64,000 nucleotides of DNA, from NCBI GenBank assembly GCA_029582265.1, contig CM055828.1, positions 12,497,777 to 12,561,776 on the forward strand, read 5' to 3'. Shown here one piece after another: positions 11,515-64,000 of the stretch. This DNA is from Zoroaster sp. YZ-2022. Taxonomy: Eukaryota; Echinodermata; Asteroidea; Forcipulatida; Zoroasteridae. Every line of letters begins with the position of its first letter. The first letter of the stretch is position 1. The notes under the pieces were generated by a model. That model was not told the DNA's origin, searched no databases, and saw only the letters and a program-made list of their open reading frames with translations. The translations under genes were made by a program, and so were the position numbers.

Positions 11515-11808
11515 TCAGTCTAGCTGATCAACAACGAGAATTTTCAGAGGAAGAACAATCACAAGTGATTTATTGCAATCACTTACTGTAGCAGAACTAC
11601 CACCATCACCTGTCCGTTTTTCATTTAAGAAATCTAGGATAACCGATGCTTGGAAAATCACACTCTTACCAAAGCCAGTTGGCAAGTTAACTACTAAATC
11701 ATAACCTTGAACAAACAACAGTCGAATCGCTGTTTGTTGACTTTTTAGCTCTCGAAGACCCAATTTTTTGGCTGCAAAATTAAAAGCTTCATCCATGCGG
11801 TCGGCCAT
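11515..11808 (-). pseudogene. RecQ-family DNA helicase fragment
   Basis: From ATG 11808 the minus strand encodes MADRMDEAFNFAAKKLGL, LKSQQTAIRLLF (Q-motif region), then LVVNLPTGFGKSVIFQ, a Walker A ATP-binding loop, and SLVIVLPLKILVVDQL, the motif Ia region. These are the first blocks of RecQ-type superfamily 2 helicases. An in-frame stop follows DQLD. Similarity appears to continue weakly (VGIEAADITSGVTDDILE) before short repeats end it near 11440. Only about 100 of the usual 600 or more residues remain, so it is a fragment, perhaps a first exon carried or copied here by a mobile element. Confidence 0.6.
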
Positions 11809-11904
11809 TTTCCACGCGATCGATATCCTACAATGTACATGTAGGCGTATAGCCCCAAGCCACACGTTATCCTGTCTGTATACAAAATGTACGTGTAACG
11901 TACA

Positions 11905-11908
<4 letters not shown>

Positions 11909-11945
<37 letters not shown>
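11909..11945. repeat. (AC)n microsatellite
   Basis: About 18 AC dinucleotides. The Cys-Val run seen upstream of the helicase fragment in translation comes from this repeat. Confidence 0.97.
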
Positions 11946-11947
<2 letters not shown>

Positions 11948-12062
11948 GTATTAGACTAAAATTATATGCATTTCCGATGTATACATGTATGCATGTGGGT
12001 CACTCCATGAAGTTGGGGCACATGGGTACATTGCTACCTTGTAGTTATTTAACCATGTTTAA

Positions 12063-13446
12063 AGGTCCTAGGAAATAGAAATTTTTAACAGTGAAAACAA
12101 TAAAGTATACCTATTGGAACATATATTTGTCATTTGTCTATTTTATCCCCGCCCCTTTGCACCATTAAAAAAATAAATTCTGAAATTAGGGGGGCGCCAC
12201 GCTCCTCCCCTACCTCCTCATTATCATATTATAATCCGCAAATCCGTGACGTAGACCTAGGAAGGTCCAGCACTGCCTGCGATGGCGAAGTTTCAGTCAA
12301 GTCGTACTCAAAACCACTGAAGTTGATGTGTCATATTAGATCTTCTTTTCAGCTAAATTTAGTAGATATCCCACATTTTTGGGAAATGCCTTGTAGGTGT
12401 GTTGTTGCTGGGTGTAGCAACACCACAAAGGAAGGTGTCAGCCTTCACCGATTTCCACCAGACCCTAAATACAGGCGAATTTGGACGGCGAGTGTGAAGC
12501 TGACCAGGGCGAAATGGTCAGGACCAACGGAGCACTCTATGATATGTAGCGCTCACTTTGAGCCAACATACTTTGACCGGGGCTCCAGAGCCAGTTTGGC
12601 ATGAGATTTAAAGCCATGCTGCGCCTGATGCAGTACCAACAATATTTCCTTAAGTCAGAAGGCCAAGAAAGCGTCCAGAAAAGAAAAGAGTAGCTTTCTT
12701 GAAGCGAGAAAGTCTCAGGGTAAGTTGCTTTGTTTTCCGTGTAACTTACATGTGTATGTGCACCCACAAGCAATAGGCTTATTACTAACGTTAGAGGTCG
12801 ATTGTTACACGCACACCACATTAACGCTAAAATGTCGTTTCATTGTGAAGTCACTGAAGATGTCATTGTACAATTCTTTGACAATGTTAATTATGTGTGT
12901 GATTTTTGGATCTTGTTTCAAAATCATCGAGTGCAGAATTATGTTTTGAAACGGTCATAACGACGGCTTACACAATTCACCAATGACTCCTGGCCATGTG
13001 TATCCATGCCATTGATTCGACGGGCCTTGCGCCGTTTTACGGTAGAGCCTACAGTACAGATTTATCGGTGCTATACGGTCATGTTTACTATGCAACTTGC
13101 AAGTCGTGTGCACATACACTGTACATGTGTACGTTGCGCACAGTTTATGACCCTTTTTTATAATCCCACGGTTTAACCATGGAGCAACTAAACACAATGG
13201 CAACATTGGTGCCTAACATTGGAGCTTAGTTTATTCATGGTTTATTGCTCCTAGGTATACGTCACGAACAGCGCCACCGCGTTGGGCAGCATTTGAAATT
13301 AGATGAGGCAATTTTTGTAAAAATCAAATTAAAAATAATTAGCCCAATCCAGACATAAATTAAACGTAAAATCGTTTTTTATTCATATCAATTGATAAAA
13401 TAACAAAAGAAAATAAATAAGCACAATTTGACTCTTCCTAGGACCT
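12063..13446 (+). mobile_element. Kolobok-like element with TTAA target duplications
   Basis: The ends AGGTCCTAGGAA (12063-12074) and TTCCTAGGACCT (13435-13446) are exact inverted repeats, each flanked outside by TTAA (12059-12062 and 13447-13450). It holds a THAP zinc-finger exon. THAP domain plus TTAA duplication is the signature of the Kolobok superfamily. At 1384 bp it is far too short for a full transposase, so it is a decayed or deleted copy nested in the larger TIR element. Confidence 0.7.
12386..12719 (+). pseudogene. THAP-type zinc finger exon
   Basis: From ATG 12386 the protein starts MPCRCVVAGCSN and runs through HRFPPDPKYRRIW to MICSAHFEPTYFDRG. This is the C2CH THAP DNA-binding fold: a CX4C pair near the N-terminus and CSAH about 50 residues later. 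A stop at 12601 follows, but the THAP-ending AVPTIF box is still readable in a shifted frame at about 12629-12650, so one or two indels break it. A consensus donor (CAGGGTAAGTT) lies at 12717-12727. It probably encodes the DNA-binding end of a Kolobok-type transposase. Confidence 0.75.
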
Positions 13447-19079: not shown

Positions 19080-20176
19080 GACACAAACTCTAGGTGTTCG
19101 GGAGATGTAAAGGTCAAATTGCGGTCACCTTTTTGTAAACATTTTTTGACAATTAACGATCAGTACAATGGTACAAAAATTGTGAATTTACCTCTTGTGG
19201 TTGTTGAGATATGATTTTTTTAAATATTAAACTTTGACTTACGGTTTGGACAGGAAGTAATGTCAAATTGGGGTCACCTTTGTGTAAATATTTTTTGACA
19301 ATTAACAATCTATATAATGGTGCAAAAAATTTCAATTTACCTCTTGTGGTTGTTGAGATATGATTTTTGTTAAATATTAAACTTTGACTTCCGGTTTGGA
19401 CAGGAAGTAAGGTCAAATTGGGGTCACATTTTTGTAAATATTTTTGACAATTAACGATCTGTACAATGGTACAAAAATTGTGAATTTACCTCTTGTGGTT
19501 GTTGAGATATGATTTTTTTAAATATTAAACTTTGACTTCCGGTTTGGACAGGAAGTAATGTCAAATTGGGGTCACCTTTGTGTAAATATTTTTCGACAAT
19601 TAACAATCTATACAATGGTGCAAAAATGTCAATTTACCTCTTGTGGTTGTTGAGATATGATTTTTGTTAAATATTAAACTTTGACTTCCGGTTTGGACAG
19701 GAAGTAAGGTAAAATTGGGGTCACATTTTTGTAAATATTTTTGACAATTAACGATCTGTACAATGGTACAAAAATTGTGAATTTACCTCTTGTGGTTGTT
19801 GAGATATGATTTTTTTTAAATATTAAACTTTGACTTCCGGTTTGGACAGGAAGTAAGGTCAAATTGGGGTCACCTTTGTGTAAATATTTTCCGACAATTA
19901 ACAATCTATAGAATGGTGCAAAAAATGTGAATTTACCTCTTGTGGTTGTTGAGATATGATTTTTTTTTAATATTAAACTTTGACTTCCGGTTTGGACAGG
20001 AAGTAAGGTCAAATTGGGGTCACCTTTGTGTAAATATTTTCCGACAATTAACAATCTATAGAATGGTGCAAAAAATGTGAATTTACCTCTTGTGGTTGTT
20101 GAGATATGATTTTTTTTTAATATTAAACTTTGACTTCCGGTTTGGACAGGAAGTAAGGTCAAATTGGGGTCACTCA
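19080..20176. repeat. ~150-bp satellite, seven copies, alternating variants
   Basis: The landmark TTGTTGAGATATGAT recurs at about 19201, 19350, 19499, 19647, 19797, 19946 and 20096, a period of 149-150 bp. Each unit also has CTTCCGGTTTGGACAGGAAG and CAAATTGGGGTCAC. Units 1, 3 and 5 read GATCxGTACAATGGTAC while 2, 4, 6 and 7 read CAATCTATAxAATGGTGC, so the array is built mostly of ~300-bp dimers. The long minus-strand frame across it is a repeat artefact. Confidence 0.95.
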
Positions 20177-20208
20177 CAACTCGTGTTTCATCTACTTGTT
20201 AAGTTCTT

Positions 20209-20535
20209 GAAGAAGAAGAAGAAGAAGAAGAAGAAGAAGAAGAAGAAGAAGAAGAAGAAGAAGAAGAAGAAGAAGAAGAAGAAGAAGAAGAAGAAGAAGA
20301 AGAAGAAGAAGAAGAAGAAGAAGAAGAAGAAGAAGAAGAAGAAGAAGAAGAAGAAGAAGAAGAAGAAGAAGAAGAAGAAGAAGAAGAAGAAGAAGAAGAA
20401 GAAGAAGAAGAAGAAGAAGAAGAAGAAGAAGAAGAAGAAGAAGAAGAAGAAGAAGAAGAAGAAGAAGAAGAAGAAGAAGAAGAAGAAGAAGAAGAAGAAG
20501 AAGAAGAAGAAGAAGAAGAAGAAGAAGAAGAAGAA
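20209..20535. repeat. (GAA)n tract, about 109 copies
   Basis: An essentially pure run of GAA/AAG triplets about 327 bp long. Poly-Lys, poly-Ser and poly-Leu frames here are artefacts. Pure GAA·TTC of this length can form triplex DNA. Confidence 0.98.
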
Positions 20536-20545
20536 CGAACAAAAA

Positions 20546-20577
20546 CAATAGGTGTTTCAGGCACATACCCGAACACC
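20546..20577. repeat. AGGTGTTTCGGGC hairpin repeat
   Basis: ATAGGTGTTTCAGGCAC...CCCGAACACCT forms an imperfect hairpin. It is the same motif that is arrayed at 54330-54613. Confidence 0.75.
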
Positions 20578-48920: not shown

Positions 48921-51344
48921 GTAAAAAACCACATGCATTAATTAGATTTGCTGCTGTCTGCCTTTACGACTTGAAGATGGCGGCCGCTGACGAAAGGACC
49001 CAATGCGCTGACGCCAAACTTCTAAAGAAACTCCCATGGGTAGAATGAACACGATCTGAAAAAGTATATTAAAAAATAAAATTATAAACAAATTCAAACA
49101 AACATGTTGAAAAGTACAAGTTCGACGACAACAATGTCGTCGCCTCGCTAGCTTACTCGAAAAAAGTTGGCCTGGTGTGAACAAATTGGGCATAGGTTCC
49201 CCCCTCTAGGCGCTTGCCGGCAATCAGCTAATGCATGGAAATATATTGGATCGTGAATATTTTATCCACAACCACAATGCATTTCATGATTAACAGCAAT
49301 GTTTTTTTTAATAATAATTGGCAATGTTGATTTAAATCTACCATGAATTTAAAAAATCTTAATTAATAAATAAGATTTTTGGCATAAAATCACCCCTCTA
49401 GGCACAGGCCAGCAATTGGTTAATGCATGAAAAATACATTTGGCCATGGATATTTCATCCAAGATCAATGTATTTCCATAAATTAACCGAAACTCGAAAG
49501 GATTAAAAAATAATTGAATTAATAATAATTATTTAAAAAGTAATAAATACAATTTTATAATAATATACAAAGAAAACGGTTAGTCACATATTTAATTCAC
49601 ACTCCCATGTTAGATTGGTAGCAAGGAGTTATTTTAACTTGGTGCTAATGACAGATTTCGTTAAATTCTGAACCCCAAAATGGGTTAATTTCGCCAAGCT
49701 AACTAAGCATTCCCTTAAACGACCATCGCATTTTATCGCTGCCGAATTCTCCTCCAACTACCTCGTTTATAACATGTTTCGTCCCGATCTTTCCATTTCG
49801 GCATCGGTTTTGACCGCCTCCTACCCCTATACCAAATTTAAATTTTAAAAGTACTCACCTCTAAAACTGACGACAAATCAGCTCAAGTCCGGTCGATTTC
49901 GATGATTTTTTTCAATTGAAAGTTCGCTCAAGTTTTCAGAATGCCCGTCGTTCTCAAATGATGCTATCCCAGCATGCACCACTGTATACACGAACTGCAA
50001 GCAGTCTGGAAAAACGGTAATTTGCGCTGTGTAGTTCGCGTGCAATGTCCGGTGCGGCGCATGCGCAGTGAGTCTATGTTGCGATCCCTACTATTATTTA
50101 CTATCGAATATAGCCAAGGCAGTATAAGCTACTTACTTGAACTTATACTTGTGAAGATAAATTTATGCAATTTTACCAAATATATGACTAAAAGAAAATA
50201 CAAAAGTAAGATTTAGCTTAATTATTAATTCTTTACTTTTGTTATGAGCCATTTCAGATTGCCAAAATTCTTTAAATGCGATTTTCTCAAAATGGCCGAA
50301 ATGGAGATGAGGCTGTGTTGCGCTCAGCCCTCGATATATATACAGTACATGATACTTGATAGGCTTATTAGCAACGTTGCCGTATTTGGAGTTTTCCCGG
50401 TCTGGCAGGCAATGCTCTGTACCCCAAAAAGGTGTCCCAAACATGACAAATGCTCTTCAAACTCACCTCCAACATTCTATGTCGCCTGCAGATGCCTCCT
50501 CTGAGGTTTAAAACCATGCAACTTGCATTGGCGAGATTTTAGGGGCATATTAAGTTTGGAAAAATACAAGATTGAACTAGTAACAAAAGTAGTAAAGTAG
50601 TATTGAGTAGTAAACATAACTGCAGGCCTCGTGACGTTTTCCCAACAATGCATTGCGCGCATACACAATACTAGACTTGGTTCCAAGTCTGTGATCGTGG
50701 TTTTTTGTCTGCCTATGGGTAGACTTGATTTCAAGTCTGAGATCGCGGTTACTTTTGTCTGCATCAGCCACGCAAAACGCCGTTTACCCCTACTGGCATG
50801 GCTATCACAGCCCTAACTCGCGATCGAAGGTTAATGTCGAAGGTTAATACACAAGAGGGCGCTATTTAATGCGATATTGCAGAGCCGTATTGGCTTCAGG
50901 CAGACAAAAAAAAAACCACGATCACAGACTTGGAACCAAGTCTAGCCTATGGGCCGTCCATAAGTACTGTTGCATTCCCCACTTTTGTGGGTCAACAAAT
51001 AATAGTCGGACACAAACTTTGTTGTGACAATCTCAATCAATGGGGTTGGTTTATTATTAACATCACAATAGCACTAGTAACATGTATGACAGGAGTGGTA
51101 GCGTATAGGTACATGTCAATAGTTAAACTTATATACTTGTGCTAAGTTCCGAATAGGGTATACGAATACCAACTATTGGGTCAGTTGGGACCATCGTTCG
51201 TTCATGCGGCTTGTCACTCGGTATACGGTTTGGCCTCCGATATGGTTTGGCCTCCGATATGGTTTGGAAGATATGGTTTGGCCTCCGACCTGGCCCCATA
51301 GAGCAGTAGATAATTGACATAAGTGGACCGCCCACCAACATAAG
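48921..51344. other. no confident gene; duplications and an inverted repeat
   Basis: CCCCTCTAGGC(G/A)C...GCCxGCAAT.GxTAATGCATG is duplicated at 49199-49290 and 49390-49490. AGACTTGGTTCCAAGTCTGT (50672 on) is inverted at 50898-50943. TTTGGCCTCCGATATGG repeats at 51229-51290. Open frames here are short and unrecognised. Confidence 0.5.
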
Positions 51345-51417
51345 GGCTGGTTAGCTCAGTTGGTAGAGCGCTCGTTAGGTAATCGAGAGGTCGCGGGTTC
51401 GAGTCCAGCATCAGCCA
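51345..51417 (+). tRNA. tRNA-like sequence, copy 1 (probable pseudogene)
   Basis: A 73-base cloverleaf: acceptor GGCTGGT/ATCAGCC, D arm GCTC/GAGC with A box TAGCTCAGTTGG, anticodon stem CTCG/CGAG, and B box GGTTCGAGTCC. The anticodon loop is TAGGTAA, so position 33 is A instead of the invariant U (the triplet would be GGT), and the T stem has a mismatch. These flaws argue for a tRNA-derived repeat, not a working tRNA. Confidence 0.55.
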
Positions 51418-51665
51418 ATTTTCATTTGCTCGCGAAACGTTTAGAATATTTCAGGTCAGTTTTTCCATATATATCTACTTTGTGTACAACCTCATAAAAG
51501 GCTTGTGTCCCGTTAATTGTGTGATCCCCGCTACTGCCGTTACCCGAGTTGTTTGCATCTGACCATGGCTTGATCCCTGGCTACTCGGCAGATATGGTTT
51601 GGCCTCTGACCTGGCCCCATAGAGCAATAGATAATTGGCATAAGTTGACCGCCCAACAACATAAG

Positions 51666-51738
51666 GGCTGGTTAGCTCAGTTGGTAGAGCGCTCGTACGC
51701 TAAAAGAGAGGTCGCGGGTCCGAGTCCGGCATCAGCCA
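51666..51738 (+). tRNA. tRNA-like sequence, copy 2 (probable pseudogene)
   Basis: Same fold as copy 1. The anticodon stem is weakened (CTCGT against AAGAG), loop ACGCTAA has C at position 33, and the B box is GGTCCGAGTCC. Confidence 0.5.
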
Positions 51739-51982
51739 ATTTTTCTTTGCTCGCGAACCGTTTATAATATTTCAGGTCAGTTTCTCCATATAAATCTACT
51801 TTGTGTACAACCACATAAAAGGCTTGTGTCCCGTTAATTGTGTGATCCCCGCTACTGCCGTTACCCGGGTTGTTTGCATCTGACCGGGGCTTGATCCCTG
51901 GCTACTCGGCAGATATGGTTTGGCCTCTCACATGACCCCATAGAGCAATAGATAATTGGCATAAGTGGCCCACCAACATAAG

Positions 51983-52055
51983 GGCTGGTTAGCTCAGTTG
52001 GTAGAGCGCTCGTACGGTAATCGAGACGTCGCGGGTTCGAGTCCGGCATCAGCCA
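51983..52055 (+). tRNA. tRNA-like sequence, copy 3 (probable pseudogene)
   Basis: Same fold. Anticodon loop ACGGTAA again lacks U33. A and B boxes are intact, so RNA polymerase III transcription is conceivable. Confidence 0.5.
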
Positions 52056-52233
52056 AATTTTCTTTGCTCGCGAAACGTTTATAATATTTCAGGTCAGTTT
52101 CTCCATATAAATCTACTTTGTGTACAACCACGTAAAAGCCTTGTGCCCCGTTAATTGTGTGATCCCCGCTACTGCCGTTACCCGGGTTGTTTGCATCTGA
52201 GCGGGACTTGATCCCTGGCTACTCGGCAGATAT

Positions 52234-52733: not shown

Positions 52734-54329
52734 ACAAGTGAAATGGACTTCAGTGTAAATGAACCCAACCATGATCCTTTGTTGACAAGAAAACAGAATC
52801 AATCTGCATTTATAATAAATGTACGCTCTGTATGTACGATTTAGTGACAGTTCAGAATGGGTGACATTCAGGGGTTGTCATTGGAATCGGTAATTTTGGA
52901 ATAAAATGTCTGCCCCCTCCCCCCAAGTTCTTGGTGATGGCATGTACTGCCACTGGTGATGAACCAACACATTTGTTTTTGTTTTTTAATTCTTTTTTTT
53001 AAATTCTTTGGTCTATCATTGCAGAGAAATTTCAGAGAAGTTCTAATATATGTGAAAATAATATGTCACAGTGAACATGCTGTAAAAAATAATAGGAAGG
53101 TTTTATAAGTACATGGACCAAGAATAAAGTATTTGAAAATTCAGATAAGTTCTAATTTATGTGAATGGGGAAAATAGTGTATACTTTTGGAGTAGCTGGA
53201 CCATTGAAATTGAAAAGGGCATTCGTTTGTTTTCAAAATTGCACACAATTATTCTTGACAATTTGTAATAAATTAAAGAAACATTATCGCACGAAACTCA
53301 CATCAAAAGAGAAAGGTATTTAAGAAATTGCCGAGTGTCATATACTCATAATTATAGTTTCATGTGATTGTGAGAGATGTCTGAGAGAGGCCTCAGGGAG
53401 CAGGACCTACAAGTACATGTATTGTGTCATGAATATTGTGCATTTTTCCTGTGAAATAATTGTCTATGTAAGTTAATTTGTATCTGAGAAGGGTAACAAA
53501 TTAAGGAAAAGTTCAGTAAACAATCACTACTAGTACTACACTAGTATAGGCTACTTATTTAATTTGTGCACAAACTGAAGATTTTTAGAGAAAATGAAAA
53601 TTACAAAATATGGCATAAAATTTCTACTGAAAAATTGCCATAACCTTAACAACTGAATTTTCCTATCCTTATTTATATTCTAAATACATTTTGGTGACAT
53701 CTGTTCATATTTTTGTTAGAAAAGGGCGAGTTGTTTACTGTCCAAAGTATGTTCACGTAACTAACGTTACTCGTTAGTTAAACAGGCACAATGCAACGAC
53801 GAATGGCCAGCCAACCGACGCTTAAAAAATGGCTTTTCTTGTATAAAAACACGAAGATAAATACAGGAAATTCTCTTAAAAACTAACTTCAAGATACTTA
53901 CCCTTTACGACTGTGTTAGCGATCCATTCTTTCACGAAATCGAAGACCTATTTTTTGGGTCAAAACTCCAACGAGTCTAAAAAATGACGTCTGGGCCATG
54001 GGCACCACACACGCAAACAGCGTCGATATCGATTGTACATGTGGCTCCATTGTAACCAAAGATAGTGTAGCGCCTCATATTGCGCCTTGCGGCGCTATAT
54101 GATATTTGATTCTTTCATGCAACGTAACTGAAACGTTTTAAATTTGATTTAAAAAACTTTGATTTAGCGTAATTCGACACCTGATGACATAATCATAACG
54201 TCACAGCGAACGGTTTCGTCAGCTTGTTATGTTTTGTTTATGTGTTAAGTTTGAAGGCTGTATATGCTTAGCAAGGATGCCTTTGTTGCCGGACAAGCGC
54301 CACTGAGAAGTAAACAAAAAAAACAGTAC
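52734..54329. other. no confident gene
   Basis: AT-rich to about 53700. A strong donor-like GTAAGTATC on the minus strand at 53893-53901 follows a short coding-looking stretch (VFDFVKEWIANTVVKG), but no start or acceptor defines an exon. TTGCGCCTTGCGGCGC at 54079 is a short hairpin. Confidence 0.35.
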
Positions 54330-54613
54330 AAAAACAATAGGTGTTCGCGCTGCGCGCTCGAACACCTAAAAAACAGTACAAAAACAATAGGTGTTCGCGC
54401 TGCGCGCTCGAACACCTAAAAAACCGTACAAAAACAATAGGTGTTTCGGGCACATACCCGAAAACCTAAAAAAAAATAATAATAATAAATAAATATATTT
54501 AAAAAAAATTAAAAAACGAATAAAAACAAGAGGTGTTCGCGCTGTCGCTCGAACACCTAAAAAAACAACGTATACAAACAATAGGTGTTTCGGGCACATG
54601 CCCGAACACCTAA
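54330..54613. repeat. array of AGGTGTTCG...CGAACACCT hairpins
   Basis: Five hairpins of about 35 bp are spaced by AAAAA.A.GTACAAAAACA. Two have a GCGCTGCGCGC loop, one a GCGCTGTCGC loop and two a GGGCACATxCCC inner stem. A sixth relative lies at 20546-20577. Confidence 0.92.
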
Positions 54614-55616: not shown

Positions 55617-55646
55617 CGTGACGTCATCAAAAGGGATGACGTCACG
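55617..55646. promoter_or_regulatory. inverted repeat with two TGACGTCA sites
   Basis: CGTGACGTCATC (55617-55628) and GATGACGTCACG (55635-55646) are perfect 12-bp inverted arms around a 6-base spacer. Each contains TGACGTCA, the CRE site bound by CREB/ATF factors. It lies about 155 bp upstream of the first gene of the virus-like cluster and could be an enhancer, or part of a terminal repeat. Confidence 0.6.
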
Positions 55647-55727
55647 AGAGTGTTTGGGTAGTAGTAGGGGAGATAAAATTTTAAATTTTAAAATTACATT
55701 TAAAAACCGCTCAAAAATACAGGTCTG

Positions 55728-55806
55728 AAAAAAATATCACCAAAAATTGATAAAATAAAATTTAAAAAAAGTATTATGTAGGTGAATAGTAAAGAGAGAG
55801 TATGGA
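55728..55806 (+). promoter_or_regulatory. shared leader, copy A
   Basis: About 75 bp (AAATATCACCAAAA..TTGATAAAATAAAA, then ATTATGTAGGTGAATAGTAA and AGAGAGAGTATGGAA) is almost identical to copy B at 56732-56813. In both cases the terminal ATG opens a gene. A duplicated early promoter or 5' leader is the simplest reading. Confidence 0.7.
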
Positions 55807-55954
55807 AGAAAGAAGAAGCTATGAAATGATAACGCCAGTTTTAAAAACTATGCCTAAACGCGTCTTGTTGAGCGATATGAAATTTATAGATTATGACACG
55901 AACACTGTAGCTGCGAAAGAAAATAAGAAAGACAAGGACTATGATTTTATTTGA
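55802..55954 (+). CDS. short ORF at the head of the PCNA-like gene
   Basis: A 50-codon frame starting at the ATG of leader A, rich in Lys, Asp and Glu (MEERRSYEMITPVLKTMPKR at the start). It ends in a TGA at 55952-55954, exactly where the PCNA-like frame begins in another register. It is either a short separate protein or the N-terminal extension of the PCNA-like protein cut off by a 1-2 base indel. I do not recognise it. Confidence 0.4.
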   Translation: MEERRSYEMITPVLKTMPKRVLLSDMKFIDYDTNTVAAKENKKDKDYDFI

Positions 55955-56731
55955 AAATTAAAGTGGGCTATACGTTTAAAAATTTAATCGACATTTTAGC
56001 AGCCATTCAGACGAAGGCTACTTTTAAAGTAGATCACGATGGTTTTTATTGTCGCGAGATGGATCGAACGGAAAGAATATTAATCGATATAGTATTAAAT
56101 CGAGTAAACTTTTTTTGAATTTAAATGTGAAAACCCAATTGAATTTATGGTTAATTTAAAACATTTACAAAGAATGACTCGTACCATTAAACGAAAAGTT
56201 TCATTGATAATTTACGTTAAAAACGAACGAATTTACATCGAAACTTGCACAGTTGGATCGTGCGGTGAAAACAAACGAGAAATTGACAGCGTAACCATCA
56301 ATACGTCAGTTAGCTTTAGTTCAATTTGTTTACCAGACGGCTATCAAGCTGGTGTTTATAAATATCCTTATATAGTTGAAAGTAGCGATTTTTTTAAACT
56401 TAAAAAAATGTTGCAAGTCGGCACGAAAATTAACATAAACATGTACAATTTAGATTACACATTAGTTTTTATAGCGATAACGATAGTCTTTAACAGCGTA
56501 GCTTTAGAATTGGGTTACACTGACAAAAAACAACAACCGACTTTTTCAGCTACTTTTGCCATGGTTTTATTTAGCATTTTATTAAAAATTTCATCTTTAG
56601 ACAAACAAATACAATTTTTCGCCCCTCATGTTGAAAACTTTTCGTTAAAAATTGCCGCGTCGGTAGGTAATTTGGGAAAGCTTTCCGCTTATATTAAAGA
56701 CGAAAGCTTTTTAGAAAACGATGAAAGCTAA
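55941..56731 (+). pseudogene. PCNA-like DNA sliding clamp, two frameshifts
   Basis: Sliding clamps encircle DNA and tether polymerases. ATG 55941 starts the right N-terminal pattern, but a small indel near 55955 shifts frame. The following stretch has VGYTFKNLIDILAAIQ and DHDGFYCREMDRTERI, matching the PCNA helix and 'GL-M-S/R' strand region. A run of seven T near 56110 shifts the frame again, and 56147-56731 continues with VNLKHLQRM, the long interdomain part, and FSLKIAASVGNLGKLSAYIK, the PCNA C-terminal strand. Total length about 260 codons, normal for PCNA. Host PCNA genes are far better conserved and usually have introns, so a viral clamp is inferred. Both breaks could be assembly errors. 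Confidence 0.65.
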
Positions 56732-56813
56732 TAGAAAAAATATCACCAAAAAAATTGATAAAATAAAAATAATAAAAATATTATGTAGGTGAATAGTAAA
56801 GAGAGAGTATGGA
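56732..56813 (+). promoter_or_regulatory. shared leader, copy B
   Basis: Near-identical to copy A at 55728-55806. It begins directly at the stop codon of the PCNA-like gene and ends at the ATG of the Cys-rich gene. The proximal part (TATTATGTAGGTGAATAGTA and what follows) is identical to copy A. Confidence 0.7.
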
Positions 56814-57111
56814 AATGATAAAAAAAACAAAAGTGATCGTTCCTTGCAAATGGCTATTAGTCGGCAAAACATCCAAGTGTTGTATACTTAGTTCACCAAA
56901 TGTGGACTATTGCGGTAAAATAAAACGTGGAAAAAGTATACCGACTGAGTGTAGAAGATGTAAAAAAGGTACAAAAACACCGATAAGTTTATGTACAAAA
57001 TGTGCAAAGTTATTAAATGTGCAAAGTTTTAAGCAGGTAAAAGGAAGAGCTAGACGCTTATTTGATTTAGTTATGATAGAGTTGGTTGAAAAGACAAGCG
57101 CTCGTTTATAG
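56809..57111 (+). CDS. small Cys-rich, Lys-rich protein
   Basis: An intact 100-codon frame. Cysteines are paired: TSKCC, DYCGK, ECRRCKKG and LCTKCAKLL, with CX2C at two places, consistent with a zinc ribbon or treble-clef-like fold. The C-terminal half is basic (KQVKGRARRLFDLVMIELVE). The start is fixed by the leader shared with the PCNA-like gene, so it is probably expressed with it early in infection. It may bind nucleic acid. No family recognised. Confidence 0.6.
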   Translation: MEMIKKTKVIVPCKWLLVGKTSKCCILSSPNVDYCGKIKRGKSIPTECRRCKKGTKTPISLCTKCAKLLNVQSFKQVKGRARRLFDLVMIELVEKTSARL

Positions 57112-57311
57112 CGGCTAAAATTTAAATTATACGGTGGAGGAGCGGTAGCGCATTCGCGGCGTAGCGCTGGCAAAGCTCTTACGTCTAGCGGCGCTGACGC
57201 TATAGCGTGCTCCGCCGCGCAAGCGTCAACACGTTCCGCTACTTGCGAAGCGTGTTTTTCATTATAATAATTTTATTTACAGTCAAGTTTATTTTAAATT
57301 CATAATTTTTT
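57112..57311. promoter_or_regulatory. GC-rich junction between converging genes
   Basis: 57130-57262 is a GC-rich island (GGAGGAGCGGTAGCGCATTC, GTAGCGCTGG, GGCGCTGACGCTATAGCG, GTGCTCCGCCGCGC) in otherwise very AT-rich DNA, with many overlapping short inverted repeats. It lies exactly where plus- and minus-strand genes converge, so a transcription end or replication element is plausible. The 14-mer GCGGTAGCGCATTC occurs again at 62656-62669. Confidence 0.4.
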
Positions 57312-57919
57312 CTATAAGATCTTTTTTTGCTGATCTAAATTAACATTTTGATTTTTATCGACATTGTCATTTTTAGGAGCTGCGGTAGAGCCGCTGTACG
57401 GATATTTTCTCTCATCGCAGAGTACTTTTTGCTCTTTAGTGATTAAATTAAATTCTTCTTGGCTTATAACACCGTCTTCAATCGCTTTTGAAACATGACT
57501 GTTGATGGTGTTGAGTTTATTTTCGGCTAAAACTCTAATCTCGTTGTGTTTTTTAGCTTTTTTTCGAGTTTAGATGTTACGTATCTGATGGCAAGCGCAG
57601 CACCACCTAAGCCTAAAGCTAAACCTTCTAAAACAAATCCTACGGGTGATGCTATAACGGTGGCGATACTGGCGATTCCAATGGCTCCTGCTCCCATACA
57701 GCCTAATTCAACGAGAGTTTCTACGATACTACAAGCGTTGATGATTTTATTATATTTTTTATATACAGCCTCACGTTCGTTTCTCTCTTTCAAAATTTCT
57801 TTTGGAATGTTATCGATTTTTTGCAAGCGAAAGGTTTTAACGTCGCTTGCCGTCGCTTCGGAGGTATCTATATATCGTACATCTGGATAAATGTTATTCG
57901 TTTCGGTAACTACGCTCAT
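57312..57919 (-). pseudogene. membrane protein with coiled-coil head, one frameshift
   Basis: From ATG 57919 (MSVVTETNNIYPDVRYIDTS) a charged helix (LQKIDNIPKEILKERNEREA) leads to a long Gly/Ala-rich hydrophobic stretch (MGAGAIGIASIATVIAS, VLEGLALGLGGAALAIRYV) that can form one or two membrane helices. At an A-run near 57550 the frame shifts. The continuation (EIRVLAENKLNTINSHVSKA, then EDGVISQEEFNLI, to 57312) is clearly coding, about 200 residues in all. Its head aligns by eye with the next gene (57956-58219), so the two are paralogues. The role is unknown; a virion or fusion-related membrane protein is a guess. Confidence 0.6.
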
Positions 57920-57955
57920 TATTTTTTATTAATAGTAAAGATAAAAAAATATAAT

Positions 57956-58219
57956 TTAAAAAAGTTTTCTTTTAAATCGTTGATCGAAGAAAGGTACGAC
58001 ATATACAGCCGCAACATAGCACAGTGCAATTTTCAGACCAAAATCTGTTAATTGGAGAAAAACGTCTAAATGTTTACACGTTTTATTGATTTTATCTATT
58101 TTTTTATTTACAACTTTACGTTCATGTTCTTCCGCTCGTAATTCTTTTTGAATGTCGTTTTCGTTTTGTAAACGCCGCACTTCGCAACGAATTAACTCTT
58201 GGAGATTATCCGTAGTCAT
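57956..58219 (-). CDS. small membrane protein, paralogue of its neighbour
   Basis: An intact 87-codon frame. The N-terminal charged helix (IRCEVRRLQNENDIQKELRA) lines up with RLQKIDNIPKEILKERNERE of the 57312-57919 gene, including the following KK..KIN..C pattern. A C-terminal hydrophobic segment FGLKIALCYVAAVYVVPFF could span a membrane. The ATG follows TTATTAATAAAATA, the AT-rich motif seen before most genes on this strand. Confidence 0.6.
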   Translation of the reverse strand: MTTDNLQELIRCEVRRLQNENDIQKELRAEEHERKVVNKKIDKINKTCKHLDVFLQLTDFGLKIALCYVAAVYVVPFFDQRFKRKLF

Positions 58220-58252
58220 TATTTTATTAATAATAAAAGATTATATTTTAAT

Positions 58253-58758
58253 CTAAATGGAAAAATTATTAATTTTTATATCGTAACAAATTCCACTTAA
58301 TAGAGATCCGAAAAAAGTGACTTGTATAAAACCTTCTTTTTTATTTTGTGTTTTGAAGCAAATTCCAAATTCTAAATACTGGGGTTCATCAGTAAATTAA
58401 AATTTTAAATCATCTATTTCGGGTAAAATTAAAAATTCTCCATTAGAAGGTTCTAAATCGCGGTTTTCCGTGAATGAATAAAAATTATTTTCACTTTTAA
58501 TTACTTTAACATATAATGAACATTTTAATGTTTCATAGATCTCAATCTGTGGTTTTTTAAATGTTCCAAGCCAAAATATATCTAGACCCATTTTTTCAAC
58601 AAGTAAAACTAAAGGTATTGAATCTTGATGAATTTCATTTTCATCAATGTGTCCAGTTTTTTAAAGATGTATGGATTGTTAGAGGTGTTGCTACTTTGTT
58701 GTAAGACGCTAGATGTAACTTGCTCGCTTCTTCGACTAGGTCCGTAAATACTCGCCAT
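58253..58758 (-). pseudogene. diverged tandem copy of the 58795-59253 gene, frameshifted
   Basis: From ATG 58758 the protein starts MASIYGPSRRSEQVTSSVLQ, nearly the same as the neighbouring gene even at DNA level. After a shift near 58662 it reads HIDENEIHQDSIPLVLLVEK, and after a second shift near 58395 it ends QYLEFGICFKTQNKKEGF. Each block matches the corresponding block of the neighbour but with many substitutions. Two frameshifts make it a pseudogene unless they are assembly errors. Role as for the paralogue. Confidence 0.6.
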
Positions 58759-58794
58759 ATTTATTATAGTATAAATTTAATTTAATGGTAAACT

Positions 58795-59253
58795 TTAAAT
58801 TTTTATATTGAAACAGATTTTAGTGTTTAAAGCGCCAAAAAAGCTTCCTTGTACAAAAACTTTTTCATCTCGCGTTTGAAAACAAATTTCGTATTGTACG
58901 TGCTGCGAATTGTTGTTGAAAACTAATGTTTTATCTCGAGAGGGAGAAGGAATATGATATACGTTGGCATCGCAATTACCCTCCCCCAAATGTGAATAAA
59001 TAGCATCGGTTTTAGTAAATTTTACAAAAAATGAACAGTATGCGGGTGTTTGATTAAACATGTAAAAGGGCAGTTTAAGCGCGCCGTGCCATCCGAGTAT
59101 AATTCGATATTTTTCGACGAGAGGTATTACTAGTAAAATATCATCTCTATCTATATAGCCGTGATGTTCGTAAATGGTGGTGTTGCTACTTTGTTGTAAG
59201 ACGCTAGATGTAACTTGCTCGCTTTTTCTACTAGGACCGTAAATGCTCGCCAT
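58795..59253 (-). CDS. beta-rich structural-looking protein (tandem paralogue)
   Basis: The intact frame extends upstream of ATG 59253, but this Met is preferred because the paralogue starts at the same MASIYGPSR. About 152 residues: a Ser/Thr-rich head, then alternating hydrophobic strands (DDILLVIPLVEKYRIILGW, CSFFVKFTKTDAIYS, VQYEICFQTRDEKVFV) with few helices, as in small jelly-roll or fibre-type virion proteins. No family is certain. It begins 16 bases after the stop of the upstream gene, indicating tight operon-like packing. Confidence 0.55.
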   Translation of the reverse strand: MASIYGPSRKSEQVTSSVLQQSSNTTIYEHHGYIDRDDILLVIPLVEKYRIILGWHGALKLPFYMFNQTPAYCSFFVKFTKTDAIYSHLGEGNCDANVYHIPSPSRDKTLVFNNNSQHVQYEICFQTRDEKVFVQGSFFGALNTKICFNIKI

Positions 59254-59269
59254 ATTTATATAAGTAAAA

Positions 59270-59965
59270 TCATTTAATTTCAAACGTTAAAAAAATTGGC
59301 ATACCGGGATTATTGATATCTCTACCTAATGGATCTTTAATTTGAAAACTTAATTCATTAAAAGTACCAATTTTAAGATTTTTTTCGTAACGGATTATTA
59401 TATTCCATATACATACTTTCTCCCAATGACACATCTTGTATCGGAAAAACGTTTAAAATAGTACACGGTTTACCATCGCAAAAATTTTCGCTCGTAGAAA
59501 TTTGATCGCAATGAATGTATATCATTTTAAAGGTAGTAAATCGAGTCTTCTTCCTCGGTGCTCTCCTTCGGCTAGATATTCATTATCAAATCCGAGTAAA
59601 TTAGCTAATCCCGATGAAAATTTAATTCTTCGTCTTGTTTGAGTAATATTTAAAATAGATTTACCGATTGTTTTATCGACGACAAACGTTATCCAAGGTG
59701 CGTTTGTTTTAACAATATCGATAATTTCAACAAGATTATAAAGTCCCGGCTCGATAAATACGGTACTGTCTTCCTGACTTTGTTCATTTCTTTCGTTTAT
59801 TATATCTTTCCGTATAAATATTTTTTCTCTTTTACGAACATTATAATATCCTACCCAAATGTTGACGCTATTTAATGATATCGTAAGATTACCGCTTTTA
59901 TTATCGATGGCATTATCTAATGAGATTGTACTATTTACATTTTTAATTTCTGCCGTATGATGCAT
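59270..59965 (-). pseudogene. conserved virus-element protein with LGFD motif, two frameshifts
   Basis: From ATG 59965 (MHHTAEIKNVNSTISLDNAI) the frame runs to a stop at 59522. GLANLLGFDNEYLAEGEHRG near 59540-59600 is a motif I associate with proteins of large virus-like DNA elements in invertebrates. One base out of register, the chain continues (IYIHCDQISTSENF), and after another shift near 59385 it ends RYEKNLKIGTFNELSFQIKD through NPGMPIFLTFEIK at 59270. The pattern is of a beta-rich virion component about 230 residues long. Function not established. Confidence 0.6.
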
Positions 59966-59999
59966 TTATTAATTATAAATTATATTTTATAATTAATAA
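59966..59999. promoter_or_regulatory. palindromic bidirectional promoter candidate
   Basis: TTATTAATTATAAA (59966-59979) and TTTATAATTAATAA (59986-59999) are a perfect 14-bp inverted repeat around TTATAT. It directly touches the ATG of the minus-strand LGFD gene and precedes the plus-strand capsid-like gene. The half-site resembles the TTATTAATAAAATA found just upstream of other minus-strand ATGs (57919, 58219). Confidence 0.6.
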
Positions 60000-60763
60000 A
60001 AATTACGTTTCCATTAGCGTTTCAGAGTAATTTTTCTTTTTCATATCCACAATCTGAAAATTTTATATCAGATCAAAATTTTGAAGCTAGCGATTTAACG
60101 AATATGAATATTTACATCAATGAAAATGAACATTTTAACGTACAACTCGACAATGTTTTTAGCAACTACAAGTTGCCTCGCGTTAATAGCGACGAGATTG
60201 TCAATGATTGAAAACATAATCCGCTAAAATTTTATCAAAATCAAATAAATCTTGTAACGTACTGCGGTACAACGAGATGCGGGGTGAGTTACGAACATTT
60301 AAATCATTCGAATGTAATGATTCGTAGTTTTTTTTAGATTTCACGTCTATTATCAAATGAGACGATTGCTTAAAGAAATGAGTTGCCCCGCGTCTTTTCA
60401 AAATTATTTTAGCGCGTATGCAAACAATATAAACATTAGCGCGTATAAAAAAATATGTAAAGACTTTCACCTCTCAACATTGGATAACGGTTACAAAGCA
60501 GTACCTGGAAAAAACTACGATAATTCAAGTTTGAACGTCATCTCTAACGAGGTGACTGATTACGATTATTACAAAACTGCGACGAGAATGAGTTTTGGAG
60601 ACCATCCCTCGACATATACGATCGGTTTTATCGAACAATCACCATCTACGGAGCTTGCTTGGCTAAAATTTATAATCAGCGAGTCTAAAGGTTTTACAGA
60701 TATCGGTACAGAACGAATTAACGATTCTATAAGAACGTACATTTACGCGATATTGGGAGCTCA

Positions 60764-62327
60764 TCATCATCATCATCATCACGAGCACCCTCCACAAAGC
60801 TTGGTCATTCATGAGGGATGGAAGATCATCAAGTTCCATGTCTATGTTTTCACACAGCAACTTAGTGAAGGTTTTTCTTCTTCCCCTCCTTTTCCTTCCC
60901 CGATTGGGATTCCACAAGATGAACCTTGATACTGGCTCTTCAGTGTGTCGATAGCTATGGCCAGCAAGTTGGAGACGCCTTCTTCTGATCTTAGTGGATA
61001 ATTTGTCTATGTTCTTGTATAGCTCTTGATTTGAAAGTTTGTCTCTCCAATGGACATCCAGGCACTTTCTCAGCATTCTGGTATAGCTACCATCCAGTTT
61101 CTTCTCAAGTTCTTTTGTGAGTGGCCAGGTGTCAGCTCCATACATGAGTATGCTTTCGACAGTTGCTCTGAAAAATGATATTCTCAAAGGTCTTCCTATA
61201 TGGGACTTCCATACACAGTTAAGCTTGTTGCATGCTTGCCATGCAAGGGCAATACGATGGTGAACCTCCTTGCTAATACTGCATATCCAAGATCCCAAGT
61301 ACCTGAAGTCATCAACTTCTTCTAGCACATTTCCACTGGCGGTTGTAATTGCCCTACTTTCATCCTGAATATTAATGGCGATAACCTTGGTCTTATTTAC
61401 ATTCATAGCCAATCCAACTGTCCCAGCATGGAATTCAACATTTTTCAGAAGCTTCTGGGCAGCTCAATGCTGTCACTCATCAGGACTATATCATCAGCAA
61501 ATACCAGGTCTGTGATTTCCTCTTTAGGATAACGTCTACTTCTCTGCTCTGTGAAAGTAAAACCAAGATTGTTCTCTTCTGATGATTTCCTCATGACATA
61601 GTCCAGAATTATAATGAACAGATATGGAGCTAGCGTATCACCCTGCAAAACACCTGCCTTGATGTTGAAGGGCTCTGTCTCTCCATCAGGTGAGATTACA
61701 ATTGCTGTTGTGTCTTCATATATAACCTCGATAGCACGAACTATCTTTCTTGGTATGCCGTATGCTCTTAGGATGTTAAACATTTGGCCACGATGGACGG
61801 AATCGAATGCTTTTTTGAAATCGATGAATGTTAGTACCAATGGTAAATTGTTAAGCTCTGCCTCTTCAACAATCCTGCGCAAGGCCAGGATGTGTCCAGT
61901 TGTTGAGCGTCCCTTGCGAAAACCATTTTGGTTCCATCTGAGGAGTGGTTCAATGGCAGGTTTGCATCTGTTGAGTATGAGGCGGTTGTAGATCTTAGCT
62001 GCAATTGGTATTAGGCTGATACCTCGATAATTAGTTGCCACTGACAGGTTTCCTTTCTTAGGAAGGGGAACTATTCCACTCTTACGGAACATATCAGGTT
62101 TGATAAAGTTGTTGAATATATGGTTGCATAGTTCTAAAAGTGTCGATTTGAATAAGTCCAGCTTCCAGACCTCTGGAGGAATTCCATCAAGCCCTCCTGC
62201 TTTCCCACATTTGAGATTCTTGAGAATTTCATCCAATTCTGGCATTGTGACGTCCTCCATGCTGATGTCAAGGTCTTGCTCGGATATGTTTTCTATTGTT
62301 TGCTCGGTTGATGGAACAGGGAGCTCA
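60764..62327 (-). mobile_element. RTE-like non-LTR retrotransposon, 5' truncated, with 9-bp TSD
   Basis: GGGAGCTCA is present at 60755-60763 and again at 62319-62327, a 9-bp target-site duplication. The inserted unit reads on the minus strand and ends in (ATG)n at 60764-60780, a simple-repeat tail typical of RTE-type elements. It lacks the endonuclease and starts inside the RT region, so it is 5' truncated. It interrupts the capsid-like gene and is therefore younger than that gene. Confidence 0.85.
60770..62318 (-). pseudogene. RTE-like reverse transcriptase
   Basis: The frame 62347-61445 has LKCGKAGGLDGIPPEVWKLD, PLPKKGNLSVATNYRGISLI, FRKGRSTTGHILALRRIVEE, FIDFKKAFDSVHRGQMF, GVLQGDTLAPYLFIIILDYV and the catalytic FADD (LVFADDIVLMSD). 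A frameshift near 61460 moves to 61412-60763 with FRYLGSWICS, LYGAD-type text (ILMYGADTWPLTKELEKKLD) and RRRRLQLAGHSYR, the normal C-terminal region. A run of Met at the end comes from the ATG tail. Only the one frameshift and the 5' truncation are obvious, so the copy is young. Confidence 0.85.
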
Positions 62328-62987
62328 AACGCAAGTAAAAACCTCATTTTTAGCAGCCGGTACCGGTTTAGACGCGAAAAGAGAATTTATAAATATAGTG
62401 GACGCTTTGATCGATTCTCCCGTAGATTTAGAAAAATCTATTCAACAATATCAAGATGTTTTAAAATACGCTCGATCGCAATTAAATTTTGTTATCGGAG
62501 AAAATGTATATCTCATGCCAAGCGACATGAATTTACGAATAGGTACGTACGTGGGATACAACAATAATGTTTTGATCGCGACTAGTAAATTATCTCTCGG
62601 TTTAAATCTAAACACAAATTCAACGACCGTTCCTCCACCGCCGCAAGGTTTAGAAGCGGTAGCGCATTCACCGTCAACAACAACTACTAGTTTAGATGAT
62701 ATACAGCCAGACGTCATCGCTCACCAGGCTCACGCTGACAAAGCTGTGCAAGCTGACAGCTCTGCTGAGCAAGCTGCGCAAGCCGAGCAAGCGTTGGAGC
62801 AAGAAGATTTAAAAACCCTCGACTCGCTCCCTACAATAACCCAAGACTCTTTAGAAGAATCAAGTACAACCGCAACGCACCAAGAAGAAAAAATGCTCTA
62901 ATCTTTGGTTTTGCAATTTTAACTGGACTCGGCGTTATGATTTACGAATTGTTAAGCTAGGCTTTACGCTAGCGTTAGCCGCTAAGG

Positions 62988-63530
62988 CTAGAGTTTTTTC
63001 TGTACATAAGTTATAATTAAAACTCCAACCCCGGTTAAAGCTAGCCACAAATGTTCCGCCGTCCACGTGACCACGTTAGAAGCTGTTTTAAATAACCAAC
63101 TTACTATCGATCCGATAATAGCTGGTAAAGCGGTTAAAGCTTGTTTTCCGAGTTTCGCTAATACACTCGCTAGATTTTTTAATGTTTTTTGTATCCACTC
63201 TTTTACACCTCCACTCGGTTCTGGCGTTGGTGGCGCGGGTTTCGGAGGCGAGCGTTCTGGAGGTGTATGTTTAGGAGGCGCGGGTTTGGGTGGCGCGGGT
63301 TTTGGCGGTATAGGTTTGGGTGGCGCGGGTTTTGGCGGTATAGGTTTGGGTGGCGCGGGTTTTGGCGCTGGCGTGGGTTTAGGTAAAACCGAACTTACTA
63401 CAAGGGCGATTGTTTCACCGATTACAGTGAATAGTAAACCGATAACACCGAATAACAAACCAAGCGAAATACCTTGTTCTCTAAATAAAGTTTCAAATTT
63501 TTCTTTAGTCGTAACATCTCTTTCTATCAT
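62988..63530 (-). CDS. membrane protein with (KPAPPKPIPP)n linker
   Basis: An intact 180-codon frame from ATG 63530. The order is a charged head (MIERDVTTKEKFETLFREQG), a membrane helix (LLFGVIGLLFTVIGETIALV), a Lys-Pro-rich repeat of about 55 residues, an amphipathic helical stretch (VKEWIQKTLKNLASVLAKLG), and a hydrophobic C-terminal end (WLALTGVGVLIITYVQ). The repeat is coded by ~30-bp DNA repeats (63283-63372). The ATG overlaps the stop of the upstream coiled-coil gene (ATGA), so the two are expressed together. A virion or host-membrane structural role is plausible. Confidence 0.65.
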   Translation of the reverse strand: MIERDVTTKEKFETLFREQGISLGLLFGVIGLLFTVIGETIALVVSSVLPKPTPAPKPAPPKPIPPKPAPPKPIPPKPAPPKPAPPKHTPPERSPPKPAPPTPEPSGGVKEWIQKTLKNLASVLAKLGKQALTALPAIIGSIVSWLFKTASNVVTWTAEHLWLALTGVGVLIITYVQKKL

Positions 63531-64000
63531 TTTTCCATTGTTTCATCAATTCTATTAATTTGACTACGAAGAACGCGATCATGCGCATCTATTTGCTTCG
63601 ACAAAACTTGTTTGTCATCTTTTAGTTTTGCAATTCTCGACGATACTTTTCATCAACATTGAGTCCTCTTCCTTCAGCGTCACTAATTATTTCTTCCATA
63701 TCAGAGATTCTTTGGTTTATTGCTTTTAATTTAGTTAAAAGGAATAATTGTTCACCTCGAATTGTAGTCATAATGTCATTGAGCGCTACTACTTCCTGCC
63801 ATGGAATGTTTAATTCCGTTTGAGTATCTTGATCTCTTGAAAGAGTCATAGTTGCCATTTCAATAGCTTCTGCTACTCGTTGCTTCGGTAAAGATGGTAA
63901 CCTTCTACCACGACCTAAAATGACTGGGGTTGTTAGATTGGAATCTAACGCCGATACAGTCGTTGTTTTATCATCAGTTAATGGTCTTTTTGCTTCGTTT
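63527..64000 (-). pseudogene. coiled-coil protein, runs off the right edge, one frameshift
   Basis: The frame is open from the window edge (KRPLTDDKTTTVSALDSNLT, TPVILGRGRRLPSLPKQRVA) through MATMTLSRDQDTQTELNIPW and a heptad-like helix (LLTKLKAINQRISDMEEIIS) to a stop at 63622. The Met at 63858 is internal, not the start. A shift near 63640 restores a second coiled-coil part (KLKDDKQVLSKQIDAHDRVL) ending at 63527, where TGA overlaps the next ATG. The charged, heptad-rich composition suggests a scaffold or virion assembly protein. Family not recognised. Confidence 0.6.

Follow-up and report, generated by a model that had tools for sequence, protein, structure and literature searches.

A decayed virus-like gene cluster, probably with its own PCNA-type sliding clamp, in the genome of the asteroid Zoroaster sp. 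YZ-2022

Introduction

What kind of element places a tightly packed set of genes, one of them resembling a sliding clamp, in the repeat-rich DNA of an animal? This question is raised by a 64,000-nucleotide stretch from Zoroaster sp. YZ-2022 (Echinodermata; Asteroidea; GenBank assembly GCA_029582265.1, contig CM055828.1, positions 12,497,777 to 12,561,776, forward strand), hereafter called the window, in which a gene cluster begins at about 55.6 kb and extends past the right edge, leaving only its left part visible. The mid-size DNA viruses that integrate into animal genomes are still being mapped, and replication genes are used for their classification; if the reading given below is true, finding a clamp among them would imply that some members recruit processive replication machinery. 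An earlier note on this DNA had taken the cluster for an integrated virus or virus-like transposon. In this study, the evidence was found to fit a foreign, virus-like gene cluster with a clamp, and no viral hallmark gene was recognised in the scanned pieces; any genes diagnostic of a family are either located past the window or not recognisable. On balance, we favour the explanation that the cluster forms the left-hand portion of a now dead integrated element, either a mid-size double-stranded DNA virus or a virus-like transposon, which belonged to the Polinton/adintovirus ('meldvirus') kind or to an unnamed relative of it. The cluster is considered foreign, virus-like and equipped with a clamp because of its open reading frame (ORF) density, its CpG content, the collinear PCNA matches, the common leaders and the tandem duplicates; the label 'virus' rests on this gene organisation and on no hallmark gene.

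Results and Discussion

Gene density and composition

From about 55.6 kb, repeat-rich DNA gives way to open frames that are closely spaced on either strand and can be read without invoking introns. Between 55600 and 60757, 73% of the bases lay in stop-free stretches of 85 codons or more, of which there were 13 (both strands, overlaps counted); the corresponding values in 200 dinucleotide shuffles were a mean coverage of 7.5% (maximum 26%) and a mean of 1.4 stretches (maximum 5). The region 62345-64000, to the right of an inserted long interspersed nuclear element (LINE), holds 5 such stretches with a coverage of 90%, versus a mean of 1.1 stretches (maximum 4) and a coverage of 18% (maximum 72%) in the same control, and is less decisive alone because a shuffled frame reaches 185 codons and the longest real one 184. 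Close packing of intronless genes on both strands, as the earlier note had described, was thus confirmed (73% versus 7.5%), but intact genes were not: 5 or 6 of the 9 genes are broken, each spread over at least two frames, and the LINE occupies 60764-62318.

The two halves of the cluster had CpG observed/expected ratios of 1.79 and 1.37, and the intervening LINE had 0.39; in the background (52 overlapping 2-kb segments, 1-53 kb) the mean was 0.74 (standard deviation 0.22, maximum 1.31). The ratio jumps at 55.5-55.75 kb, at the left limit of the cluster, where a palindrome without strand (GTGACGTCATC / GATGACGTCAC) was read in the sequence at 55618..55645; the left limit of 55617 proposed earlier fits both features. 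No second copy of the element or of the LINE was found in 1-55599 (blastn, E 1e-3).

The sliding-clamp gene and its leader

The broken gene at 55.8-56.7 kb (55802..56728, plus strand) is, on sequence similarity, probably the remains of a PCNA-type sliding clamp belonging to the element itself. It consists of three pieces in different frames (55793-55951, 55945-56115 and 56108-56728), which were searched separately. For piece 55945-56115, PCNA_N was the sole Pfam match (positions 4-54, E 0.0014, 18.8 bits versus a cut-off of 20.3), five sliding-clamp models were the sole NCBIfam matches (best E 3.4e-4), and 11 of 11 sequences matched in the PDB at E up to 10 were sliding clamps, the best being an archaeal PCNA (E 7e-4). 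Moreover, the single PDB match of piece 56108-56728 was to residues 62-116 of PCNA 3p91 (E 0.082), which is the next stretch expected of a clamp. The identity of the gene was accepted because these weak matches agree in family and order; the PCNA N-terminal domain is indicated by their concordance and by no curated cut-off. The PCNA-like clamp of the earlier note was thereby supported by concordant, individually weak matches in Pfam, NCBIfam and the PDB. Like PCNA and the archaeal sliding clamps, the gene matches the N-terminal domain collinearly over two pieces; unlike them, it is very divergent and broken, and its matches to clamps lie in the N-terminal region.

The clamp gene shares its leader with its neighbour. 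The leader at 55727..55807 (plus strand) recurs at 56734..56814 (plus strand), 5' of a Cys-rich gene, as an 81-base repeat that is 78% alike, within which 55772-55807 and 56779-56814 are identical over 36 bp, reaching into the starts of both genes; the mean in 100 shuffles was 0.00. The minus-strand genes also have AT-rich leaders, which lack the 36-bp sequence. AT-rich promoters had been proposed for the cluster, and AT-rich leaders were indeed found, two of them identical over these 36 bp. The sharing and non-sharing of the leader may correspond to two expression classes.

The Cys-rich gene itself (56809..57111, plus strand) is intact and, as described earlier, encodes a Cys-rich protein of 100 amino acids with 8 Cys, putatively of the zinc-binding type. 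No Pfam family matched it above cut-off, the nearest being JAMP (E 1.6e-4, 21.9 bits versus 25).

Tandem duplicates among the minus-strand genes

Two pairs of minus-strand genes arose by tandem duplication. In the first, an intact beta-rich gene of 152 amino acids (58795..59253) lies next to a broken copy (58256..58759) with pieces in two frames and an internal stop (E 2e-19 between 58798-59253 and 58271-58758). The two copies have a common N-terminal tail: 72 of 78 bases are identical in the first 26 codons, three of the five differing codons being silent, and the protein identity beyond these codons is about 32%. The fibres of adenoviruses and phages combine a constant tail with divergent heads, and by analogy the constant tail and divergent heads of this pair look like twin viral spikes. 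The predicted fold of the beta-rich gene consists entirely of strands except for one short helix, with low confidence (predicted local distance difference test, pLDDT, 54.5), and structure searches with this model gave no identification; two minus-strand genes were modelled, each with low confidence. The beta-rich, structural-looking proteins announced by the earlier note are thus reduced to a low-confidence, all-strand model for one small gene.

The second pair is of the membrane type by hydropathy, which agrees with the several small membrane proteins proposed earlier. Gene A (57315..57919) comprises 57530-57919, encoding 130 amino acids, and a probable continuation in another frame at 57315-57569; gene B (57956..58219) encodes 87 amino acids and is a paralogue of A. 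The two share 34% identity over 62 amino acids (E 4e-9) and are tandem duplicates. A further minus-strand gene at 62988..64000, which continues past the window, has coiled-coil-like, membrane and Pro-rich stretches and lies in pieces that were taken as one gene.

A conserved gene with a relative elsewhere

The broken minus-strand gene at 59273..59965 (pieces 59525-59965, 59376-59579 and 59273-59452) was the sole gene of the cluster for which a database relative was found. In a protein database of about 5.8 billion sequences, piece 59525-59965 had one relative at E up to 1 among 34 candidates, a protein of 250 amino acids designated P0001, which is encoded on a contig of 9394 bases. The identity was 39% (48 of 124 aligned positions), with 82% of the piece covered. 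A single relative is a lower bound, because the search reaches only proteins that share short exact words. By this sequence similarity, the cluster has kin elsewhere.

The large plus-strand gene, the LINE and decay

The largest plus-strand gene is divided by the LINE into a left part at 59993..60763, in more than one frame, and a right part at 62328..62957, which appears to end in a membrane-type stretch in another frame; here, as elsewhere in the cluster, adjacent pieces are assigned to a single gene by inference even though their frames differ. No match at cut-off was obtained for it (three pieces scanned in Pfam, and two of these in PHROGs and NCBIfam as well), and the label 'large capsid-like gene' given to it earlier is unsupported. 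A PHROGs terminase small subunit match (E 0.017) to the right piece falls on an Ala/Glu/Gln-rich stretch and was judged compositional, by judgement and not by test.

The LINE (60764..62318, minus strand) is probably 5'-truncated and encodes a reverse transcriptase (Pfam RVT_1, E 1.1e-27). It is flanked by a 9-bp target duplication, GGGAGCTCA, at 60755-60763 and 62319-62327, for which rough arithmetic gives about 0.07 chance matches in the compared stretches. Its CpG ratio of 0.39 in a block above 1.3, together with the target duplication, shows that the LINE arrived after the element. Decay of the element is well supported by the frame breaks and by this insertion, as the word 'fossil' in the earlier note had implied; some of the frame changes could be sequencing errors, and the insertion is independent of whether they are errors or decay.

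Searches for hallmark genes

The family scans covered 18 cluster pieces and 2 LINE frames in Pfam, 10 cluster pieces in PHROGs and 10 in NCBIfam; the stop-free stretches outside them include 58256-58396, 58612-58776, 60212-60334 and 62769-62957. Protein-primed polymerase B, RVE integrase, FtsK-like ATPase and adenovirus-type protease were not found in the scanned pieces with Pfam and NCBIfam, and the element continues beyond 64000. As to a double jelly-roll major capsid protein or penton, no family in Pfam, PHROGs or NCBIfam matched any scanned piece of the large plus-strand gene, or the beta-rich gene, above its cut-off. Names below the Pfam cut-offs (JAMP, DUF4781, Asp4, DpnI, RNA_pol_Rpb2_4 and CdaS_N) were not accepted. 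A search of a phage collection returned five matches at E 1 to 6.

Weighing the explanations

Several observations weigh against a virus-like element with a clamp. Every clamp match is individually weak and below the curated cut-offs. Piece 56108-56728 also matches Pfam RNA_pol_Rpb2_4 (E 0.014, below cut-off), the residues involved being those of the clamp match, and piece 55945-56115 also matches a PHROGs family of unknown function (E 0.089). The C-terminal half of the gene matched no clamp model (56108-56728 in Pfam and NCBIfam, 56339-56728 in Pfam) and contains hydrophobic, membrane-like stretches by hydropathy. In addition, the pieces scanned with Pfam, PHROGs and NCBIfam yielded no recognisable viral hallmark gene, be it for a polymerase, an integrase, a packaging ATPase, a protease or a capsid protein, and the one relative, P0001, carries no name. 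No relative was confirmed in IMG/VR, scanned with seven single pieces and alignment A1, or in prokaryote genomes, scanned with alignment A1; these scans do not show absence, because single-protein scans reach close relatives only. The spike reading leans on a low-confidence model (pLDDT 54.5), for which the PDB lists were filled by generic beta-sandwiches. Finally, CpG alone is no marker of the cluster, because the ratio is also about 1.6 outside it, in a hairpin-repeat stretch at 53.75-54.75 kb, and falls to 1.0-1.2 inside it, at 58.25-59.0 kb.

Among the alternatives, a Polinton-type transposon proper, which is nested within the favoured explanation, survives best and is regarded as possible though somewhat doubtful. 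The polymerase B, integrase, ATPase and protease would then lie just past 64000, and the clamp would have been acquired. The dense genes on both strands agree with this proposal, as do the 15-25 kb (up to 40 kb) of described elements and their several uncharacterised proteins, according to PMC4028283 and PMC6431247; against it, no core gene was recognised in the visible 8.4 kb. Polintons/Mavericks (polintoviruses) resemble the cluster in having dense two-strand genes and several uncharacterised proteins in a eukaryote genome (PMC4028283, PMC6431247), and differ in that the cluster has a probable sliding-clamp gene. The word 'clamp' is absent from the main texts of PMC4028283, PMC6431247, PMC11071296 and PMC11071308, and the word 'PCNA' from those of PMC4028283 and PMC11071296. 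'Polinton' and 'PCNA' co-occur as words in PMC3511435, PMC11244446, PMC10285105, PMC4602308 and PMC6746690. Absence from print of a clamp in such elements is not claimed, as the literature is only partly searchable.

It is unlikely that the cluster is a piece of a large DNA virus, nuclear or cytoplasmic, from a giant-virus, nudivirus or comparable lineage that entered the genome. Large DNA viruses commonly carry PCNA genes, the clamp being an ordinary gene in several of them, and tandem-duplicated small genes are common there; moreover, the identical leaders look like viral promoters, and the weak Pfam Rpb2 match (E 0.014, below cut-off) would fit if real. However, no gene typical of such viruses was found at the Pfam cut-offs, and P0001 is encoded on a contig of 9394 bases, which is not decisive for the size of its genome. 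Host genes or pseudogenes, namely a PCNA copy and small membrane-protein genes adjoining by chance, are very improbable: although PCNA is cellular and the surrounding DNA is of animal type, the clamp is only distantly similar to clamps of known structure (best E about 7e-4), lies in a block rich in CpG and ORFs, and has its leader in common with an unrelated gene. Because of this leader and the block composition, introns or a host gene were rejected as the principal interpretation.

An integrated mid-size virus or virus-like transposon, either of the Polinton/adintovirus kind or of an unnamed related one, thus remains our preferred explanation. Adintoviruses and other meldviruses resemble the cluster in that they are mid-size DNA virus genomes associated with animals, whose virion proteins are diverse and often cannot be recognised (PMC11071296); their defining OTU-type PolB, Hexon and chromodomain integrase were not seen in the visible part, where the Pfam scan recognised neither OTU-type PolB nor Hexon. 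Adintoviruses and other meldviruses are described in PMC11071296 as mosaics with many unrecognisable virion proteins, and there is therefore room among them for an element such as this one. The element probably works like a member of the Polinton/adintovirus/meldvirus group, and is not filed here in a family.

In such an element, the plus-strand genes behind the common leader, for the clamp and the Cys-rich protein, would form an early replication module, in which the clamp would tether to the element a DNA polymerase supplied either by the host or by a gene further to the right. A late virion or membrane module would comprise the genes on the minus strand together with the large plus-strand gene, and the duplicated beta-rich genes might supply a pair of spikes that share a virion-anchoring tail but differ in their receptor-binding heads. 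Integration would have been followed by decay. There is an outside chance that the cluster represents a lineage of mid-size DNA viruses, not yet described, that integrates into animal genomes, encodes its own clamp and so may use a clamp-dependent processive polymerase (host or viral) instead of the stand-alone protein-primed polymerase of Polintons, and bears paired spikes with a common tail and two different heads.

Surrounding DNA

The remainder of the window is repeat-rich, animal-type DNA, as had been stated earlier, with reverse transcriptases, a THAP-domain frame and many tandem repeats, as well as an integrase frame of the long terminal repeat retrotransposon type at 4.6-5.9 kb. At the gathering threshold, Rfam recognised three transfer RNAs (tRNAs) only. 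These belong to a 321-bp unit repeated three times in tandem at 51269-52233, with one tRNA gene per copy; according to ARAGORN, the outer two are tRNA-Thr (GGT) and the middle one is tRNA-Ser (GCT), and the anticodon may have changed between copies of the unit. At 54318-54611, a unit of about 50 bp, in which an inverted repeat (AGGTGTTCG ... CGAACACCT in the first copies) can form a hairpin, occurs five times. An array of 109 perfect GAA units at 20209-20535 directly follows a 149-bp tandem repeat array at 19110-20173; translated frames at 20199-20576 are similar to those of the 54318-54611 repeat, a similarity which points to a related repeat flanking the GAA units. At 11518-12601, a DEAD-type helicase fragment (minus strand) adjoins the THAP-domain frame (plus strand), and these frames are possibly remnants of DNA transposons.

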